Shown here in pieces: positions 4,745-29,549 of a DNA stretch of 32,903 nucleotides. A model generated the notes under the pieces. The model worked only from the letters and a program-made list of their open reading frames with translations, searched no databases and was not told the DNA's origin. Position numbers and translations under genes: made by a program. Source of the stretch: Patescibacteria group bacterium (GTDB lineage Bacteria > Patescibacteriota > Patescibacteriia > 2-12-FULL-60-25); contig JARGGJ010000018.1 in NCBI GenBank assembly GCA_029210915.1, positions 1 to 32,903 of the forward strand. Reading direction: 5' to 3'. Numbering within the stretch: position 1 is the stretch's first letter; the number at the start of each line of letters is the position of its first letter.

Positions 4745-4851
4745 TATTCACGATCTATAATTTTTGACCGCTTTGCTGTTTAGCGGACCAAAGCATGTTT
4801 GATTCTTCTTTGCCGGACTTATACTTTAGCTCGGTCTTTTTTTTACCTTGA
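4745..4851 (-). pseudogene. Detached 3' remnant of a MazG-like gene
   Basis: Read on the minus strand, this stretch encodes KTELKYKSGKEESNMLW and continues about ten more codons to a stop. The pattern K-E-KYKSG-ESN-W matches the C-terminus of the intact MazG-like protein next door (KAEQKYKSGIKESNIPW). There is no start or N-terminal part. The remnant and the intact gene are separated by the inverted-repeat element 4862-4999. Confidence 0.65.
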
Positions 4852-4861
4852 TTAACTAATT

Positions 4862-4999
4862 GTCTGAACCTTGATTTTAGCTCATATTCACGCTCAAATT
4901 ATCTTGATTACTGTAGGAATTTCTTTTATATATGATTAGTCTTCAATAAGTAATCAAGATAATTAGGTCGGTAATCGGTTTTATAATCAAGGTTCAGAC
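4862..4999. mobile_element. Inverted-repeat element A (138 bp, no gene)
   Basis: Terminal inverted repeats are GTCTGAACCTTGATT at the left and its complement at the right. A second internal pair, AATTATCTTGATTACT, faces AGTAATCAAGATAATT. The left 58 bases are nearly the same as element C (14126 on). It resembles a MITE but no target duplication is clear. The right end overlaps the last codons of the MazG-like gene. Confidence 0.75.
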
Positions 5000-5332
5000 G
5001 TTTTTCCATGGTATGTTTGATTCTTTGATACCGGATTTATATTTTTGTTCCGCTTTATCTTTTGTGAGTGCAAAACCCTCTTCCAGATCTACACCCAGTT
5101 GATTGGCGAGCCGGCAGATACCAAAAAGGAGATCTCCCATTTCGGCAATGAAGTAATTTTTATTATTTTTTACATAATCGATACGTTCGGCTTCGGATTT
5201 GTAGCGGAGGTGTTGGGACATTTCTACAAGTTCTTCGTGAATGTGATCGAATTTATCGATGTTGGGAACATCTTTCCAACCATTACCATTCGACCAGGAT
5301 TTGACGATTTGTTGAGCTTCGGAGATTTGCAT
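4994..5332 (-). CDS. MazG-like nucleotide pyrophosphohydrolase
   Basis: About 112 aa, a single all-helical MazG-type domain. HIHEELVEMSQHL carries the EExxE-like metal-binding helix and FIAEMGDLLFGI the second acidic motif ExxD. Family members hydrolyse NTPs or dNTPs to the monophosphate, a house-cleaning role. The C-terminal codons GTC TGA lie in the terminal repeat of element A, so the stop codon comes from the repeat. A detached 3' remnant of a second copy lies beyond the element. The ATG at 5332 or the one two codons upstream could start it. Confidence 0.85.
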   Translation of the reverse strand: MQISEAQQIVKSWSNGNGWKDVPNIDKFDHIHEELVEMSQHLRYKSEAERIDYVKNNKNYFIAEMGDLLFGICRLANQLGVDLEEGFALTKDKAEQKYKSGIKESNIPWKNV

Positions 5333-5340
5333 AATCAATA

Positions 5341-11542: not shown

Positions 11543-11701
11543 GTCTGAACCTTGATTGCCACTCAGATTACAAACCTAATTTCCTCCATAGGCTGATCAG
11601 CCTCTGGCTGATACTTGATTACTAAATGTGGGTATTAAATATATACCTAAAGTAATCAAGTTAATATGTTCGAGAATCTGAGTGGCAATCAAGGTTCAGA
11701 C
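11543..11701. mobile_element. Inverted-repeat element B (159 bp, no gene)
   Basis: A 27-bp perfect terminal inverted repeat begins GTCTGAACCTTGATTGCC (11543-11569 and 11675-11701). An internal pair ACTTGATTACT (11613-11623) faces AGTAATCAAGT (11651-11661). A partial GTCTGAAC copy lies at 11530. The palindrome AGGCTGATCAGCCT at about 11590-11603 looks like an added hairpin. Confidence 0.82.
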
Positions 11702-14109: not shown

Positions 14110-14125
14110 TATCCGTCTGAACCTT

Positions 14126-14459
14126 GTCTGAACCTTGATTTTAACTCATATTCACGCTCAAATTAACTTGATTACTGTGGGAGTTGATTTAAATAATATT
14201 AACCTTGGGGCGTATTCTTACTGTGCCGCTCTAAGCTTTAAGCGGAGTGTGGTGATCGCCGCGCTGTCGCCGTAGGCGGAACTGGAAAGCTGATGACAAA
14301 GCACGGATAACCACCCCACTTCATCAATCGATTACGAGGGGCACCGCAAGGGTTTATCCCTACTAATAAAACGGATAATCAAGAAAATTTGGTCAACAAT
14401 CAGTTTGATAATCCCCCTTCGCCAAAGGCTTCGGAGGGACACGGTCAAGGTTCAGACAG
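14126..14459. mobile_element. Inverted-repeat element C, interrupted by hairpins
   Basis: The left end is nearly the same as element A over about 58 bases (GTCTGAACCTTGATTTTA, then CTCATATTCACGCTCAAATT). The right end AAGGTTCAGAC is separated from its expected ATAATC neighbour by a 33-nt palindromic insert (14414-14446). The middle (14220-14360) holds further palindromes, for example CCGCTCTAAGCTTTAAGCGG, and no gene. An extra GTCTGAACCTT precedes it at 14115. Confidence 0.7.
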
Positions 14460-18308: not shown

Positions 18309-20093
18309 TCAGGGGGACTTGTTGATTATATAGGCTTTACCGCCATTACCTTCAGCTAAAAAAGTATATCGTTCATCTGTAGCAATCATTTGATCCAGTT
18401 CAGGCCAGCGCTCATTATCGATCAAGATAAAATTTGAATGCAAGCGATCATGGATTAAACTATAAGTATCGGCTTGTGTTGATGATGAATTAAAAACCAA
18501 GTTTTGATAGTCGAGGGCGAGGGTGGAACTGGATTTGTAGAGGAAGGTTGGGTCGAGGCCCGAGATGTAGCGGAGGTTTTGATTGTGAAAAAAGAGGATG
18601 GGGAATTCATCCCACATGGAGTTGTAGACTCTGTCGCCGGGCTTCGCGATGGCGGAGATTGCATCCATGGGGGTTTTATATTGATTATTAAAAAAGCGCT
18701 TGGCAAAATGCATATCCGAATAGGCGGAGACTGTGTGCTGGACTAATATCATTACTATGGTGAAGAGGATGACTGAGGGAACTAATAAATCGAATTTCGT
18801 ATTTCGAATTTCGTATTTCGCGGTTGGAAGTTTTAATTTGTTGTAGAGATTTTTCCAGTTGATTAGTTGGGCAAGGAGGGCGGTTTGCAGGGCGAGCAGT
18901 GGTTGGAAGTATTCGGTGAAGCGGAGGCTTTTAATCGAGGCGATGAAAAGCAAGATTAGAAGCGGAAGCAGTGTTATCGCTAATCGTATTTCGTATTTCC
19001 CTCGACCTGAGCTCGGGACGAAGGTCGTATTTCGTATTTCGCTGTTATTGCTCTTGCTATTTGCTATTTGATATTTGCCATTTGATAGGATTGATTCGAG
19101 CAAAGTGAGTAGTAAAATAATTGCGAAGACTCCGAACATGCTGATGATGCTTTCGATTGAGCTTGTGTTCCATTCTGTGCCCATGCGGAGGATGCGAGGA
19201 GTAGCTACGGCGACGTCGAAAAGTTGGACTTTTAGGAAACTTAACAACTCGGAGCGGTTTGGATGAACAATAAGACCCGCCAGACATCCTGTGATGCTTG
19301 CCACTAACATGAACAACGAATTACGAACAACGAACTTCGATTTTTGAAGAAAGAGGTAACTTAGGATTATGACAAATATTGAAACCGGGAGGAGGATCCA
19401 GCCGCCGTGGGTGAGGGTGAAGAGGAAACTTAAAAGGCTGATAGCTGATAGCTGATCCCACTTCGCTAAAGCTTTGAGGGACACGTAGCGGATAGCGAAA
19501 AAATTTGGTTGTTTTAAACTCACCCCCTTCGCCCCCTCTCTTAAGATTAATAGAGGGGGTGTTTCTAAGTTTACTTTTAGCCCCTCTCTTGATCTTAAGA
19601 GAGGGGTTGGGGTGAGTTTATCCCGTTGCAAACAAAACAAAACCACTCCAATTCCAACAAACCAAAATAGAATCGCGAGTGGCGAGGCTTTGCCTTGGAT
19701 TAGGCGAGTGGTAAAGGGTTGGGTGAATGCGAGGAGGATGGGCCAGAGCCACCAGGGTTTTAGTTTAAGTTTGTAAAAGATGAGTGATATGCCAAGCATG
19801 CAGAGAACCGCGAAAAAGATGGATGAGATGCGGGAGGCTGTGAGCGGATCGAAGATCTTTAAGAAAGGGATTTGTAAAACGTGAAATAAAAAGTGTTGAT
19901 CGGCAAAGTGAGATCCGAGGGTTGTGAGATCCAACCAAGTAAAATCAGTTAGCGGACCCTGTTCAGATATCAGCTTTGCGACGGTAATGTGATAGAAAGC
20001 GTCGGGATCTGCGAAGCGATCCCGCGGGGTGATAAAAGAAAACCAGCTTAAGAAAAAGATGGTGAGAGCAATAAATATATATTTGGTTTTCAT
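18309..20093 (-). CDS. Polytopic glycosyltransferase-like membrane protein (GT39/STT3-like topology)
   Basis: About 594 aa with ten or more hydrophobic segments. Early in the first outer loop is RDRFADPDAFYHITVAKL, the Asp-rich motif and following His expected for GT-C enzymes that use lipid-linked sugars. A soluble C-terminal part follows the last helix. I start at the ATG at 20093; the upstream TTG is less likely. Several word repeats are read in frame (18791-18821, 18984-19085, 19440-19625), giving KYEIRNTKF-type and repeat-derived segments, and two hairpin inserts of 27 and 30 nt keep the frame. The stop TGA and last codons (NKSP) come from the dispersed C-rich repeat. Confidence 0.75.
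   Translation of the reverse strand: MKTKYIFIALTIFFLSWFSFITPRDRFADPDAFYHITVAKLISEQGPLTDFTWLDLTTLGSHFADQHFLFHVLQIPFLKIFDPLTASRISSIFFAVLCMLGISLIFYKLKLKPWWLWPILLAFTQPFTTRLIQGKASPLAILFWFVGIGVVLFCLQRDKLTPTPLLRSREGLKVNLETPPLLILREGAKGVSLKQPNFFAIRYVSLKALAKWDQLSAISLLSFLFTLTHGGWILLPVSIFVIILSYLFLQKSKFVVRNSLFMLVASITGCLAGLIVHPNRSELLSFLKVQLFDVAVATPRILRMGTEWNTSSIESIISMFGVFAIILLLTLLESILSNGKYQIANSKSNNSEIRNTTFVPSSGRGKYEIRLAITLLPLLILLFIASIKSLRFTEYFQPLLALQTALLAQLINWKNLYNKLKLPTAKYEIRNTKFDLLVPSVILFTIVMILVQHTVSAYSDMHFAKRFFNNQYKTPMDAISAIAKPGDRVYNSMWDEFPILFFHNQNLRYISGLDPTFLYKSSSTLALDYQNLVFNSSSTQADTYSLIHDRLHSNFILIDNERWPELDQMIATDERYTFLAEGNGGKAYIINKSP
18791..18821 (-). repeat. ATTTCG word repeat inside a coding region
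   Basis: CGAATTTCGTATTTCGAATT and continuing words, read in frame as KYEIRNTKFD. Related copies occur at 18984-19043 and in YchF (26883-26912). Confidence 0.8.
18984..19085 (-). repeat. ATTTCG and ATTTGC words with a 27-nt hairpin insert, in frame
   Basis: CGTATTTC words are split at 19000-19026 by an insert holding CGACCT/AGGTCG. Then TTGCTATTTGCTATTTGATA words follow. The reading frame of the host gene stays open. Confidence 0.75.
19440..19625 (-). repeat. GATAGCTGATAGC words, a 30-nt hairpin insert and C-rich hairpins, in frame
   Basis: GCTGATAGCTGAT is split from AGCGGATAGC by 30 nt (19457-19486; CCCACTTCGCTAAAGCTTTG then AGGGACACGT), ten codons. Two further hairpins follow: CACCCCC/GGGGGTG and CCCCTCTCTTGATCTTAAGA with its partner. 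All are translated. Confidence 0.75.
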
Positions 20094-20283: not shown

Positions 20284-20682
20284 TTATTGCGCGACGTTGA
20301 TGAGCGAGCCCAAAACGAAGTTTGAGATTGCGAATGCCGCTACGATGATAAGAAGGCCGATAATGGCGTTTCTGATCATGGTTGTTGCTGTTTTAACTTT
20401 ACCTTCATCGCCACCGGCAGTCATCCAGAGGAAGCCAGCGTAGAGGATGTAGACCAAGAGCAAGATACCAATGAAGCCTAAGGCCACGTTGATGAGGCGA
20501 CCGACTACATCGGGCAAACTTGCATCTGCAGCGGTTCCGATATCAGCGCTATCACCTACAGACTTAACGTTTTCTTGCGCTGTAGTAAAAACACCCTGAG
20601 CCGAAGCCATTGCCGGCAAAGCTAGTGCACCTGCGGCTGCTGTATAGTAACAAGATTTTAAAAATGTTTTCATAGTTTGCAT
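20284..20682 (-). CDS. VirB2/TrbC-like pilin 1
   Basis: 132 aa. A signal peptide (about residues 6-28, ending AMASA) is followed by a short polar segment and two hydrophobic helices (about 61-87 and 104-128) joined by the loop MTAGGDEGKVKTATTMIRNA. This layout is that of VirB2/TrbC pilins, which form conjugative or type IV secretion pili and are common as orphans in candidate-phyla bacteria. No VirB4-like ATPase is in the window. AAAGGA precedes the ATG. Last gene of the minus-strand set. Confidence 0.85.
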   Translation of the reverse strand: MQTMKTFLKSCYYTAAAGALALPAMASAQGVFTTAQENVKSVGDSADIGTAADASLPDVVGRLINVALGFIGILLLVYILYAGFLWMTAGGDEGKVKTATTMIRNAIIGLLIIVAAFAISNFVLGSLINVAQ

Positions 20683-20709
20683 TAATTCCTTTATTCTTAA
20701 TTTGTGCGT

Positions 20710-21159
20710 TTAAGGTATACTCGATGTTCCACCTCCACCCAGACCGGCTAATAGCGCATTCAGAATTTCGTTGGATATTACAAACGACAAGCCGATGATA
20801 AAGATACCAATGATGGCATTACGAATCATGGTTGTTGCTTGTTTTACTTTGCCTTCATCTCCCCCGGCAGTCATCCAGAGGAAGCCTGCCCAGATGAGAT
20901 AAACAAGGAGAAGTACGCCAACAAGTGTAAGGACAGAGTTGATAAGATTGCCTACGATTTGAGGAGCGGTTTGCTCTGTTTTTCCCAAATCACCGGCTGC
21001 GGTTTTTAAGCCACTCGACATCTCTGCCAAACCGGCGTGGGTTGCCGGAGCAAAAGCTAACGCTGTACCAAACAAAATTGCCGAGATGGCAAAAAAGCGC
21101 ACAAAGTTGCTTGCCGAAAGTATTTGCTTAACCGATTTGAATATTTTATTTGGCTCCAT
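20710..21159 (-). CDS. VirB2/TrbC-like pilin 2
   Basis: 149 aa. Signal peptide to about residue 41, two hydrophobic helices at about 70-93 and 110-135, and the same loop MTAGGDEGKVKQATTMIRNA as pilin 1, so the two are recent duplicates. The C-terminus has a Gly-rich tail (AGLGGGGTSS) absent from pilin 1. It is 27 nt upstream of pilin 1. Confidence 0.85.
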   Translation of the reverse strand: MEPNKIFKSVKQILSASNFVRFFAISAILFGTALAFAPATHAGLAEMSSGLKTAAGDLGKTEQTAPQIVGNLINSVLTLVGVLLLVYLIWAGFLWMTAGGDEGKVKQATTMIRNAIIGIFIIGLSFVISNEILNALLAGLGGGGTSSIP

Positions 21160-21181
21160 ACTTAAGAACTTGGAATAAAGG

Positions 21182-21574
21182 TTATTGCGTTGCTTCGATT
21201 AACTGACCGATTACGAAACTGGTGATTGCCCAACCGGAAAGGATAATTGCGAGACCAATGATACCCGAGATGATCCATCCGCGAGCTTCTTTGGTTTTGC
21301 CTTCGTCTCCACCGGCGATCATATATTTGAAACCACCGACGAGAACGATAACAACTGCGATGATACCCAAGAAACCGAGAGCTACGTTGATGATGTTCGC
21401 TATGGTTTGGCGAAGATCACTGCCCTCACCTCCCGAGAGTGCTAAACTTTCATCTAAAGCACCTACACCCAATGTATTAGCAGTTAAGGTAGGTTTTTGA
21501 GCTAAAACGCCCGCTACCGGCAACATAATCGCGAGAGCGATAATGAAAGCTGTTATCTGTTTTGTTATTTTCAT
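21182..21574 (-). CDS. VirB2/TrbC-like pilin 3
   Basis: 130 aa. Signal peptide (2-25), two hydrophobic helices, loop MIAGGDEGKTKEARGWIISG. It differs more from pilins 1 and 2 but has the same plan. It has the best ribosome site of the set (AAAGGAGGTG, 7-8 nt before the ATG) and an extended -10 (TGCTATAAT) upstream, so it may be the first gene of a separate transcript after the repeat insertion at 21630-21910. Confidence 0.85.
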   Translation of the reverse strand: MKITKQITAFIIALAIMLPVAGVLAQKPTLTANTLGVGALDESLALSGGEGSDLRQTIANIINVALGFLGIIAVVIVLVGGFKYMIAGGDEGKTKEARGWIISGIIGLAIILSGWAITSFVIGQLIEATQ

Positions 21575-25987: not shown

Positions 25988-26486
25988 CAATTTGAACCTT
26001 GATTAAACTTGATTTTCCTTGATTAACCCTGATTACTTAAGGGGTTTAATTTATTGTTATGTATTCGCTTAAACTCCAGGCTTTTAGCTCCGAAGTTTAT
26101 CAGCAGACCAATTTCGACATTATACGTTTCCAAATAATTCATCGCTTGTGCAAAATGGACATCTTCCAATTTTGATTGGGCTTTAATTTCTACCATAATT
26201 GAATTTTCCACAAAGAAATCTACTCTGCGAGTTCCTATCTTATGCCCATCATAGGTAATGAGCATTTCTTTCTCTCTCTCGAATGCTAAGCCTCTTTTTT
26301 CCATTTCAATTGCCAACGCTCTTTGATAAATTACTTCTTGAAAACCATTCCTAAGTTTGGTATGCACTCTCATCGCAGAGCCAACTATTGTATGTGTGAT
26401 TTCGCGGTAGTCCGTCATATATAAATAATCCCATCACAAAGTAATTATGGCAAATCGTGGTTAATCAAGTTTAATCAAGGTTCAGA
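25988..26486. mobile_element. Inverted-repeat element D carrying a GxxExxY gene
   Basis: The left arm is TGAACCTTGATTAAACTTGATT and the right arm GGTTAATCAAGTTTAATCAA then GGTTCAGAC, the same terminal family as elements A-C. It holds exactly one gene. The right end supplies the stop of YchF and the left end lies just upstream of the -10 of the solute-binding gene. Confidence 0.75.
26023..26418 (-). CDS. GxxExxY protein (PD-(D/E)XK-like)
   Basis: 131 aa. The family signature GFQEVIY is at about 25-31. Later motifs are RVDFFVENSIMVEIKA, with the acidic-then-ExK arrangement of PD-(D/E)XK nucleases, and GLLINFGAKSLEFKRI at the end. The molecular role of the family is not established. It is the only gene of element D. 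On the minus strand TTGCCA, 17 nt, GATTAT precedes the ATG by a few bases, so it has a promoter of its own and is probably leaderless. Confidence 0.88.
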   Translation of the reverse strand: MTDYREITHTIVGSAMRVHTKLRNGFQEVIYQRALAIEMEKRGLAFEREKEMLITYDGHKIGTRRVDFFVENSIMVEIKAQSKLEDVHFAQAMNYLETYNVEIGLLINFGAKSLEFKRIHNNKLNPLSNQG

Positions 26487-27576
26487 CAGCTATCCTAAAA
26501 TACACAACATCTCCATCTTGCACCTCGTACTCTTTGCCTTCGATGCGGACTTTGCCTTTTTCTTTGGCGCCGTTCCAGCCTCCGCCGGCAACGAAGTCTT
26601 CGTAGGTTGCAACTTCGGCGCGGATGTAGCCTTTTTCGAAATCCGTGTGGATGACTGCGGCGGCCTCGGGGCCTTTGGCGCCACGGCGGACTGTCCAGGC
26701 TTTGGTTTCGAGTTCGCCCGAGGTTAGGAAGGTGATTAGGTCGAGTGATTTGTAAGCGGCAACAATGAGTTTATCCAAACCCGAGCTGTCTTGGCCGACG
26801 GATTCGAGGTATTCCTTCTTTTCATCTTCGTTCATGTCCAAGAATTCGGATTCCATTTTGGCGCAGATCGGTACTATCTCAGCGTATTTCGAATTTCGTA
26901 TTTCGAATTTCGCAACTGCATCTTTCCAGGAGGCGGATTGGAGTTGAGCTTCGGAGACGTTAAGCGCATAAATCATCGGCTTTAAAGTTAATAGTGACAA
27001 AGACTTCATGGCTTTGCGTTCATCGTCTGTCCATTCGAGATCGCGGAGAGGCTCCCCTTTTTCGAGAGATGCTTTGGCACGTTCGAGAGCCGGGACGAGA
27101 ATCTTGGTTTCTTTGTCTCCGCCGGATTTTAATTGCTTGGATGCTGTTGTGATGCGTTTTTCGACGACGGACATATCGGCGAGTGCGAGCTCGATGTTGA
27201 TAGTTTCCATATCACGAGCCGGGTCGATGTTGCCGTCGACGTGGATAATATCGCCGTCTTCGAAGACGCGAAGGACCTGGACTATAGCGTCTGTATCACG
27301 GATGTTTGCCAAGAAAGCGTTACCCAATCCCTGCCCCTCGGCTGCACCGCGGACAAGGCCCGCTACATCAACGAATTCGATTGTGGTTGGGACGATACGG
27401 CCGGAGTGGGAAATGTCGGATAAAGGTTTAAGCCTTTCATCCGGAACTTCGACAACGCCCACATTTGGGTCGATGGTACAAAATGGAAAATTAGCGCAGT
27501 CGACCGCTTTTTTGGTGATTGCACTAAACAGAGTTGATTTGCCTACATTCGGCAGGCCGACGATTGCGATTTTCAT
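26482..27576 (-). CDS. ychF: Ribosome-binding ATPase YchF
   Basis: 364 aa, full length for the family. P-loop GLPNVGKST (7-15), DVAGLVRGA for the second nucleotide motif, NVSE in place of the GTPase NKxD (ATP specificity), and a C-terminal TGS-like domain. It is a universal ribosome-associated P-loop protein. Two oddities. In the helical region after NVSE, the residues KFEIRNSKY are encoded by an ATTTCG word repeat (26883-26912) read in frame, adding about two residues relative to E. coli. The last codons GCT GTC TGA overlap the terminal repeat of element D, which gives the stop. Confidence 0.95.
   Translation of the reverse strand: MKIAIVGLPNVGKSTLFSAITKKAVDCANFPFCTIDPNVGVVEVPDERLKPLSDISHSGRIVPTTIEFVDVAGLVRGAAEGQGLGNAFLANIRDTDAIVQVLRVFEDGDIIHVDGNIDPARDMETINIELALADMSVVEKRITTASKQLKSGGDKETKILVPALERAKASLEKGEPLRDLEWTDDERKAMKSLSLLTLKPMIYALNVSEAQLQSASWKDAVAKFEIRNSKYAEIVPICAKMESEFLDMNEDEKKEYLESVGQDSSGLDKLIVAAYKSLDLITFLTSGELETKAWTVRRGAKGPEAAAVIHTDFEKGYIRAEVATYEDFVAGGGWNGAKEKGKVRIEGKEYEVQDGDVVYFRIAV
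26883..26912 (-). repeat. ATTTCG word repeat inside ychF
   Basis: CGTATTTCGAATTTCGTATT followed by TCGAATTTCG, read in frame as KFEIRNSKY. Same words as at 18791 and 18984. Confidence 0.85.
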
Positions 27577-28160
27577 AAATATAACTTTTAATAATCAATA
27601 ACCAAGTTCCAATTACCAATAAATAACCAATCACCAAACTTGAAATAACCAATAACCAAGTTCCAATCTCCAATAAATCACCAAAAACTAAATAACGAAA
27701 AATAATCAAATATGAGACTGTTCTGAGAAGGTTATTTTTTATTTTCAAGTTTGTAAATTATTACGGCAAAAATTCTTTTCAATTCGTATGCTTCTTGGAT
27801 CTCGGTATCAATTTCTTTAGATCTGTCTGGGTTGGCTTCTGATAAGAGCTCTAACCAATAATGCGTTTCTTTTATCTCTTTGCGTGAGATTTTAAATCTG
27901 AATATAAAATCTTTTTGACCAAGCGAATCATTTGCCTCGCGATAATTTGCACCGATTGAACCGGAAGATCTGATTAGTTGCTTGATAATCTGTTCATTAA
28001 TTGTATTGCTTGGCAGAGATTTACATAAATGGATTATACTTTTTGCAAATTTTAACGTTCTTTCTTCCAGATCAAAATCTTTCATATTGCTTGATTATTG
28101 ATTATTTTTAGTTTTTGGTGATTTATTGGTGATTGTTTTGTTGGTTATTGGTTATTAGGC
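27577..28160. mobile_element. Inverted CAATAACCAA word element carrying a four-helix-bundle gene
   Basis: The left arm (27577-27715) and right arm (28086-28160) are inverted copies. TCACCAAAAACTAAATAACG on the left matches the complement of TAGTTTTTGGTGATTTATTG on the right. It holds exactly one gene, in the same way as element D, but uses another word. Confidence 0.72.
27732..28085 (-). CDS. Four-helix-bundle protein (S23/23S rRNA intervening-sequence protein family)
   Basis: 117 aa, all helical. The hallmark IRSSGSIGANYREAN lies at about 48-62, followed by DFIFRFKISRKEIKETHYWL. Homologues are encoded in intervening sequences of 23S rRNA genes and, as Avd, beside diversity-generating retroelements. 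Here it lies outside rRNA and no reverse transcriptase is present. It is the single gene inside an inverted word-repeat element. Function unknown; nucleic-acid binding is plausible from the family. Confidence 0.88.
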   Translation of the reverse strand: MKDFDLEERTLKFAKSIIHLCKSLPSNTINEQIIKQLIRSSGSIGANYREANDSLGQKDFIFRFKISRKEIKETHYWLELLSEANPDRSKEIDTEIQEAYELKRIFAVIIYKLENKK

Positions 28161-28220
28161 TTTTAGTTTAGCGGTATTTTGTGGTTTTGGTCAATGGATG
28201 ATATAACGTTAGGGAAAAGT

Positions 28221-28292
28221 CTTAACGTCTTAACGTCTTAACGGGGTTGGTTGGGTTTGTACGTTAAGACGTTATGACTTTATGACGTTAAG
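28221..28292. repeat. Inverted CTTAACGT word repeat
   Basis: CTTAACGTCTTAACGTCTTA on the left faces ACGTTAAGACGTTATGACTT on the right. It lies directly upstream of the flavoprotein gene. Confidence 0.75.
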
Positions 28293-28304
28293 ATAAGTGT
28301 ATAT

Positions 28305-29549
28305 ATGAAGATAGCTGTAATTGGCGGTGGGGCTGCGGGATTAATGGCTGCGGCTACAATTGTAGAGGCTGACTCTGAGGCTGAAGTTTTTTTAATTGAG
28401 AAAAATGAGGAGCTTGGCAAGAAGGTGATCATCTCGGGAGGCGGAAGATGTAACCTGACAACCGGGTTTGATGACATTAAGCAAATTTTGACGAAGTATC
28501 CTCGTGGTGGGAAGTTTTTGACTAAGGCGATGTATGCTTTTCCTCCTAAGGCTGTGCGCAATTGGTTCGAAGCTCATGGCGTGACGGTTAAGATAGAGGG
28601 TGATATGCGGGCTTTTCCGGTTTCTGATGATGGGCAAGATGTTGTTGGGGTTTTTGAAAAGTCGTTTAAGAAAGGGAATGTGAAAGTGATGATAAATTCA
28701 GCGGTGGAGGAAATTAAAAAAGATAAAAAAGGTTTTAGTATAAAAATCAAGAAAAGATTAAAGCCGCTTACTGTCGACAAAGTTATTCTGACGACTGGCG
28801 GGCAAGCTTATAGGCAAACAGGGTCGACGGGTGATGGTTATACTTTTGCCGTGGAGCTTGGGCATAGCATTACTCCGCTTGCGCCGAGCTTGAGTGCTTT
28901 TCATACGAAAGAAAGTTGGACGGCGGATGTGGCAGGGTTATCTTTTAAGAAAGTTGAGTTGAATATAGGAAAGCGGACGACGGTTGGACCTGTTATGTTT
29001 ACGCATAAAGGAGTTACAGGGCCGGCTGTGTTTGCGATGTCGTCTTTGATAGCGTTTGAGGAGCTTTCGACGACTAATCCCATACTTTTAACGATGGATA
29101 TTTTTCCGGATCTGAAAATTGATAAATTGAATGCCAAGTTATCATTGCTTTTGCATAATAATCCAAAAAAGAATTTGAGCAGTGTTTTAAGTTTACTGGT
29201 TCCCAAATCTTTGGCGATGATAGTTTGTGATGAAGTAAAAATTGATTTTGCTAAAAATGCCGGGCAGGTTAGCAAGAAAGAAGTTGAGGTGATGGTTGAA
29301 TGGATGAAAAAGACACCTTTGCATATTATTGCGCGATCTGCGGGCGAGGAGTTTGTTACCGCGGGCGGAGTTGATCTAAATGAGATTAATCCGTCGACAA
29401 TGGAGTCTAAAAAGTGCCCGGGTTTGTATCTGGCCGGCGAGATTTTGGATATTGACGGGTTTACAGGCGGGTTTAATTTGCAAAGCGCTTGGGCGACGGG
29501 GAGATTGGCGGGAACTAATTTAGTACTTAGTCATAGTACTCAGTCATAG
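28305..29549 (+). CDS. HI0933/YhiN-type flavoprotein (NAD(P)/FAD-dependent oxidoreductase)
   Basis: 414 aa, normal length. FAD-binding GGGAAG (7-12) in IAVIGGGAAGLMAA, GKKVIISGGGRCNLT (38-52), TTGGQAYRQTGSTGDGY, FTHKGVTGPAVF, and the closing GLYLAGEILDIDGFTGGFNL plus QSAWATGR. The family is widespread and probably redox active, but its substrate is unknown. The final residues (SHSTQS) are encoded by a TAGTCATAGTACTCAGTCAT word repeat, so the native end has been replaced or extended. Confidence 0.9.
   Translation: MKIAVIGGGAAGLMAAATIVEADSEAEVFLIEKNEELGKKVIISGGGRCNLTTGFDDIKQILTKYPRGGKFLTKAMYAFPPKAVRNWFEAHGVTVKIEGDMRAFPVSDDGQDVVGVFEKSFKKGNVKVMINSAVEEIKKDKKGFSIKIKKRLKPLTVDKVILTTGGQAYRQTGSTGDGYTFAVELGHSITPLAPSLSAFHTKESWTADVAGLSFKKVELNIGKRTTVGPVMFTHKGVTGPAVFAMSSLIAFEELSTTNPILLTMDIFPDLKIDKLNAKLSLLLHNNPKKNLSSVLSLLVPKSLAMIVCDEVKIDFAKNAGQVSKKEVEVMVEWMKKTPLHIIARSAGEEFVTAGGVDLNEINPSTMESKKCPGLYLAGEILDIDGFTGGFNLQSAWATGRLAGTNLVLSHSTQS

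Follow-up and report, generated by a model that had tools for sequence, protein, structure and literature searches.

The GTCTGAAC repeats described here are probably the ends of a compact mobile element that carries a GxxExxY nuclease gene as its sole gene, is placed at gene boundaries and is set in motion by that nuclease. The nuclease gene and the repeats form one unit that is inherited together and has spread across phyla. The copies lie at gene boundaries, namely near stop codons, behind the T tracts of terminators, and between the stop codon and the ATG of neighbouring operon genes. The tip of the element often stands in for the last letters and the stop codon of a gene, and essential genes are left intact.

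In the window, the whole stretch of 32,903 nucleotides that was analysed, the tip GTCTGAACCTTGATT is read at 4985-4999 and at 26473-26487, on the minus strand in both cases, and its bases 1-6 are in frame as GTC TGA and close the MazG-like ORF and ychF (Table 1). This confirms the initial annotation, according to which both genes end in GTC TGA as the outer end of the terminal repeat, in elements A and D; in element A it is the right tip that closes the MazG-like gene. There are 11 near matches to the tip with at most three mismatches in the window compared to 0.99 expected, and the exact 15-mer is found in 48 copies genome-wide (1.455 Mb in 49 contigs) with none for the reversed control.

Table 1. 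Element copies and the genes that they adjoin or carry in the window
Feature	Position	Strand	Details
GTC TGA, outer repeat tip forming the last codon and stop of the MazG-like ORF	4994..4999	-	
GTC TGA, outer tip of element D forming the last codon and stop of ychF	26482..26487	-	
MazG-like ORF	4994..5338	-	PF03819, 24 bits (cut-off 22)
YchF GTPase gene	26482..27576	-	TIGR00092, E=3e-135
Element A, MITE-like copy, 138 bp	4862..4999	.	51-nt inverted arms, 78% complementary
Element B, MITE-like copy, 159 bp	11543..11701	.	T tract of a terminator hairpin adjoins the right end
Element C, compound copy	14115..14457	.	Left end doubled (14115, 14126); right end 13/15 match
Element D, 498 bp, bears the GxxExxY gene	25990..26487	-	Ends ATTTGAACCTTGATT (left) and GTCTGAACCTTGATT (right)
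GxxExxY protein, 131 aa	26023..26418	-	TIGR04256, PD-(D/E)XK nuclease

GxxExxY is the only gene in element D, which has no DDE transposase. The short inverted-repeat copies share their ends with this gene-bearing relative in the same genome, as MITEs do. In the window's genome (G000) and in three further genomes (G028, G029 and G030) the GxxExxY copies lie between inverted arms, and the copies of 100-160 bp are therefore gene-less derivatives (MITEs); most copies in G000 are without the gene. Target-site duplications show no excess over shuffled pairings for lengths of 2-9 nt, and at 1 nt there is a slight excess in one of two sets. The flanks are A-N-T on both sides, a composition that is weakly specific. 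An Rfam scan of the window matched tRNAs alone and assigned the element copies to no RNA family, including group II intron RNA. Doubled tips 21-23 nt apart, of the form GTCTGAACCTTGATT-N6-8-GTCTGAACC..., were seen at five loci in G000 (L017, L019, L020, L021 and L022), as if new copies had been inserted just inside the ends of older copies.

The positions of the ends were compared with gene boundaries in the stretches of G000 around tip matches, where genes were called by a simple ORF and hexamer script, and the distance d was taken from the outermost element end to the next gene boundary outward. Under a uniform noncoding null, 10 of 55 ends in G000 lie at -1 to +10 nt from a gene 3' end compared to 0.9 expected, while the same window at gene 5' ends holds 2 compared to 1.1 expected. 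Eight more ends overlap a gene and supply its stop codon, five of them at d=-6 (GTC TGA), two at -13 and one at -17. These stop-supplying ends use all three frames, with TGA as the stop codon in frame 0 and in frame 1; the in-frame GTC TGA is common and not the rule. Its frame is the commonest, yet in a rough hand count it does not differ significantly from one third, and no preference for it is claimed. Other ends lie 2-10 nt past an intact native stop codon, and about half of the ends are farther from gene ends, by up to several hundred nt.

The uniform noncoding null was judged too generous because the elements themselves lengthen the spacers, and it was replaced by nulls in which each element is excised and its insertion is uniform over the remaining spacer. 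For paired elements in G000, G029 and G030 together, 19 of 44 3' sides are within 10 nt of the gene end (-6 to +10) compared to 9.3 expected (P=1e-4), whereas the 5' sides in the same pool are as expected (5 of 24 compared to 3.7, P=0.29). Convergent spacers, which are without promoters so that no promoter is at risk, have 9 of 12 within 10 nt of a stop codon compared to 3.9 (P=8e-4). Eleven of 96 ends are directly behind a terminator hairpin and T tract, compared to 1.2% of control positions. The element ends are thus clustered at gene 3' ends and not at 5' ends, and the genome-wide comparison of tips with stop codons that was proposed initially finds them distributed non-randomly relative to gene ends. 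This placement may reflect targeting, purifying selection or both.

Comparisons of orthologues, made for YchF across the family and with joined C-terminal queries for other genes, indicate what the host genes keep. YchF ends in FRIAV* in the window and FRVAV* in G029, both with the element, while same-genus genomes without it have FRVAT*, FRIAS*, FRIAT* and FRIGA*. Since these empty orthologues end in Thr, Ser, Thr and Ala, the Val and TGA of the occupied ychF are derived from the element; a native Val-TGA in YchF as the origin of the tip is ruled out by the same endings. Valine is last in both window genes as first annotated, but it is not the usual end of YchF in this lineage, where it is found in 6 of 28 element-free members of the family and in none of the four of the same genus. 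The length of YchF is unchanged, with the element replacing the native last codon and stop codon. The empty ychF site in G030 reads GCT^ACTTAAGATTTTATT..., and TGTGTTATAATG, which lies to the right of the element in G000, is found 36 nt downstream in this empty site, so that about 36 nt differ between the filled and empty alleles.

Similar replacements are seen in PolA (NWEEMESV* with the element, NWEEMNKI* or NWEEMTKL* without), a glycosyltransferase (EKIYIV* and EQIYSD*), MutM (CQPLSEP* and CQI*) and, in G029, RnpA (RKKV* and HKKV*) and TrxB (KYLQSEP* and KYLQSQ*). The native stop codon is unaltered, with the tip 2-10 nt behind it, in the genes for a sugar transferase, RecG, LexA, translin, UvrA and a flippase; in AlaRS the G of the tip completes TAG. 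The native C-terminus is kept in YchF, PolA, the glycosyltransferase, RnpA, TrxB, MutM, KsgA, RecG, LexA, UvrA and AlaRS. In the clearest cases the predicted genes keep their native length to about two codons, with the tip supplying the stop codon. The proposal that insertion occurs at or beside stop codons and leaves the gene unharmed is supported by these near-full-length coding regions and by the clustering of ends specific to 3' sides. Orthologous sites with and without the element are known for LexA (G000 and G030; C-terminal query 97% identical), the sugar transferase (C-terminal query 93% identical), RecG, TrxB and the flippase.

The MazG-like gene has no orthologue elsewhere in the genus, and the family gave one match only, of 27% identity. 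A second MazG-like C-terminal coding stretch lies across element A (4788-4844 compared to 5006-5062, 72% identical) and continues for several codons to a stop codon of its own. It could be the remnant of a tandem paralogue, a captured flank or an old duplication.

Two or three species carry an element at the same gene end in the case of YchF, the glycosyltransferase, PolA and translin, and the element sites are therefore not all independent. At YchF both junctions are common to G000 and G029 although the two nucleases share only 64% identity, an indication of cassette exchange besides insertion; the nuclease at this site in G029 is 82-85% identical to copies elsewhere. The glycosyltransferase end holds elements in G000, G029 and G028, and the G028 element has GTCTAGACC ends, a type that no other copy in the family has. 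An apparent 11-nt tip remnant (GAACCTTGATT) is seen at rnpA in G000 and a decayed copy of the element at uvrA in G029. The multiply occupied ends fit repeated insertion as well as a swap of interiors between copies.

The window protein matches TIGR04256 with 135.7 bits (cut-off 35) and PF13366 with 128.6 bits (cut-off 22). Residues D67, E77, K79, Q91 and Y95 are the same in all 66 aligned sequences, where D67 lies within one of the scan patterns and the other four outside them. These residues make up the D, E77-x-K79 and Q91xxNY95 motifs, corresponding to the D, E-x-K and QxxxY motifs of PD-(D/E)XK nucleases of the RecB/Cas4 type. The AlphaFold2 model (mean pLDDT 90.6) has Cas4 SSO0001 (4ic1) as its best fold match (Z 9.8, 100 residues, 3.0 A). 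The PADLOC Cas4b profile gives a weak match (E=0.003), and a sequence search for a solved structure rendered no convincing hit. The 131-aa window protein has no cysteine and differs in this from Cas4 proper with its Fe-S cysteines; an Fe-S cluster is thus not expected. GxxExxY is accordingly predicted, from sequence motifs and the model, to be a minimal Cas4/RecB-like PD-(D/E)XK nuclease of about 125 aa.

A scan based on an alignment of eight copies against one genome per bacterial and archaeal species gave at least 80 loci, with proteins 62-76% identical to the query among the matches listed. The loci are from Bacteroidota, Chloroflexota, Spirochaetota, Ignavibacteriota, Chlorobiota, Fibrobacterota, Cyanobacteriota, Pseudomonadota, Myxococcota and candidate phyla, and the element with both GxxExxY and repeats is found in at least 11 phyla. 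The ends in these bacteria include GTCTGAACC.TGATT, GTCTTAACC.TGATT and GTCTGAATTA.GATT, and the GATT boxes that follow the ends are mostly 8-9 nt apart. Among the matches listed, 48 of 79 loci of other bacteria had both ends, as did 38 of 72 loci with enough flank; the control windows for the latter, at a distance of about 1.1-1.45 kb, had none. The end finder is imperfect, because a control in the wrong orientation also fired in 40 of 144 windows and 16 of 86 loci are without a repeat of the five classes at 90% match. On the protein tree the repeat class requires 5 changes (minimum 4, shuffled mean 29.3) while the phylum label requires 17. The repeat class thus follows the tree and the phylum does not, which means that gene and ends travel as a unit across phyla. 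No relatives were found in phages or in viral contigs, and a plasmid search rendered eight records with relatives, mostly distant.

In these other phyla the element is often wedged into operon junctions. The stop codon of the upstream gene meets the left end of the element in most loci (d from -17 to +7), and the ATG of the next gene is often 1-3 nt past the right end. When the elements are excised from operon spacers, the stop codon is at most 3 nt away in 24 of 36 cases compared to 15.8 expected (P=4e-5). GxxExxY is in sense orientation in 31 of 36 tandem cases, probably because the gene-bearing copies are expressed from the promoter of the host. In L267 the element lies between a PEBP gene and an aconitase-C (leuD-like) gene. 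The commonest neighbours are type I restriction-modification genes, with a specificity-subunit domain in 13 of 68 neighbouring proteins. Elements between hsdM, hsdS and hsdR, especially of the GTCTGAATTA repeat class, were seen in L195, L207, L221, L225, L226, L245 and others, in the order hsdM-element-hsdS (L225, L226), hsdS-element-hsdR (L221, L245) or hsdR-element-hsdS (L195).

The element would accordingly be laid out as GTCTGAAC, then GATT boxes, a single gene for a nuclease of about 125 aa, and the inverted arm. GxxExxY may recognise the arms and make the cut that starts movement, and host repair might then join the element into AT-rich A-N-T^ sites; joining by host repair would also account for the missing target duplication. 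Insertions that break genes would be lost and boundary copies remain, and the pattern at gene boundaries could be strengthened if A-N-T sites, for instance the bases following TAA, TGA or a T tract, are preferred. That the nuclease is the mover is suggested by its being the sole gene and by its co-inheritance with the repeats, and linkage in cis alone would also give this co-inheritance. The main doubt about the mechanism is who joins the DNA, and we know of no joining activity in a 125-aa nuclease.

It is quite possible, if short of probable, that random insertion followed by purifying selection is sufficient, with positions behind a stop codon or terminator or between operon genes as the only places tolerated in compact genomes. 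Insertions inside the coding regions of PolA, KsgA or AlaRS would be lethal, the A-N-T flanks are only weakly specific, and many gene-bearing copies sit in very short operon spacers with few free positions. However, the 3'-end excess remains when insertion is uniform over the same spacer with the element excised, it holds in convergent spacers, which contain no promoter to be damaged, and ends directly behind T tracts occur at about ten times the control rate. A somewhat more doubtful explanation makes GxxExxY a cargo or accessory gene in an element whose GTCTGAAC ends are moved by a recombinase acting in trans, which would agree with the many copies in G000 that have no GxxExxY gene and with the fact that, to our knowledge, no nuclease of this size integrates DNA alone. 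Against such a recombinase, the gene-bearing copies looked at have GxxExxY as their sole gene in all sampled phyla, the repeat class follows the GxxExxY tree, and transposases of the HUH (Y1) family, the only family searched for, are absent from G000 and G030.

Homing-like spread, with cleavage by the nuclease at particular gene ends and gene conversion that copies the element into those sites, would explain why different subfamilies are found at the same gene ends across species (YchF, the glycosyltransferase in three species, PolA and translin) and why remnants lie at RnpA and UvrA. It is nevertheless unlikely, in that dozens of unrelated sites in one genome have only A-N-T flanks in common and the common sites may be old insertions with an exchanged interior. 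Least probable by far is that the repeats are non-mobile signals at host 3' ends, such as terminator hairpins or REP-like hairpins that stabilise mRNA, retained because they are useful. Long inverted arms do occur at transcript 3' ends in either orientation and some positions are common to several species, but the repeats are present or absent at orthologous sites, one nuclease accompanies them across phyla, many copies are behind the terminator and not before it, and the window copies have no Rfam match.

A mobile element with its movement started by the nuclease resembles several known systems in part. As in MITEs and their parent insertion sequences, gene-less short copies have the ends of longer one-gene copies, are dispersed, and are present or absent at orthologous sites; unlike them, the gene is a Cas4/RecB-like nuclease and not a DDE transposase, no target-site duplication was detected and the copies lie within a few nt of gene ends. 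Group IIC introns insert behind intrinsic terminators, where many element ends are also found, but the element has inverted arms and no reverse transcriptase, and it occurs at stop codons without a terminator as well. Tn7 inserts at attTn7 downstream of glmS without damage to the gene, and its TnsA is a PD-(D/E)XK nuclease. The element likewise settles downstream of genes without damage and has a nuclease of that type. Tn7 is however site-specific, requires TnsB (DDE) together with further proteins and produces a 5-bp duplication, whereas one small nuclease is associated here with dozens of sites. REP/BIME sequences with RAYT are also small palindromic repeats in 3' intergenic regions, often as inverted pairs, but the arms here are much longer, have GATT boxes and are linked to another gene; identity with REP/RAYT was rejected as the Y1 transposase (PF01797) is absent from G000 and G030. 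Cas4, including solo Cas4 and Cas4 in mobile elements, has the fold predicted for GxxExxY and its D/ExK/QxxxY active-site pattern, but GxxExxY is about 125 aa, has no cysteines in the window protein and has no CRISPR link that was seen.

No description of these repeat sequences as a nuclease-bearing element was found in the literature searched, which was that outside subscription papers and preprints. Among 5.39 million papers GxxExxY is named in two, one on an algal virus and one with a passing mention as a gene beside a reverse transcriptase. The element is classed here as insertion-sequence/MITE-like mobile DNA and would be categorically new only if the nuclease is proven to be the mover. 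A class of transposable elements with a minimal Cas4/RecB-like nuclease as the sole enzyme, moving terminal-repeat DNA without target duplication and landing at stop codons, operon stop/start junctions and terminator ends in at least 11 phyla, can be put forward tentatively. If the nuclease is the mover, transposition would have a new enzymatic route, and the system would be a natural one for inserting DNA at gene ends while the genes remain unbroken. GxxExxY is a widespread family, and its placement inside terminal inverted repeats gives the family a testable role. Many of the short repeats known from Candidate Phyla Radiation and Bacteroidota genomes may also be explained by the element, and it is a warning that the last codons and stop codons of annotated genes may belong to a mobile element.

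Other repeats were observed in the neighbourhood of the element copies. Just upstream of the ychF start, within 27590-28160, there is a gene for a 23S IVP-like four-helix-bundle protein (TIGR02436, 27732-28085 on the minus strand) flanked by inverted arms with CCAATAACCAA boxes (27664-27692 and 28107-28135, 97% complementary), which suggests another small element that is built in the same way but unrelated. An inverted repeat of AACGTCTTAACG units at 28201-28304 ends one base before the ATG of the ORF at 28305-29549, and similar units adjoin a GxxExxY copy in L059. Repeats of TCGAATTTCGTATTTCG are found at 26889-26912, inside the ychF coding region, and at 18790-18827 and 18977-19041. They resemble the TCGTATTTCG units in L062 of a further genome (G001, 1418-1481), where a distant GxxExxY gene is flanked by 64-nt arms of such units that are 94% complementary. 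Three tandem T4SS pilin-like genes (PF18895) are located at 20284-21574, one of which passes the cut-off of the Mbov_0395 family.
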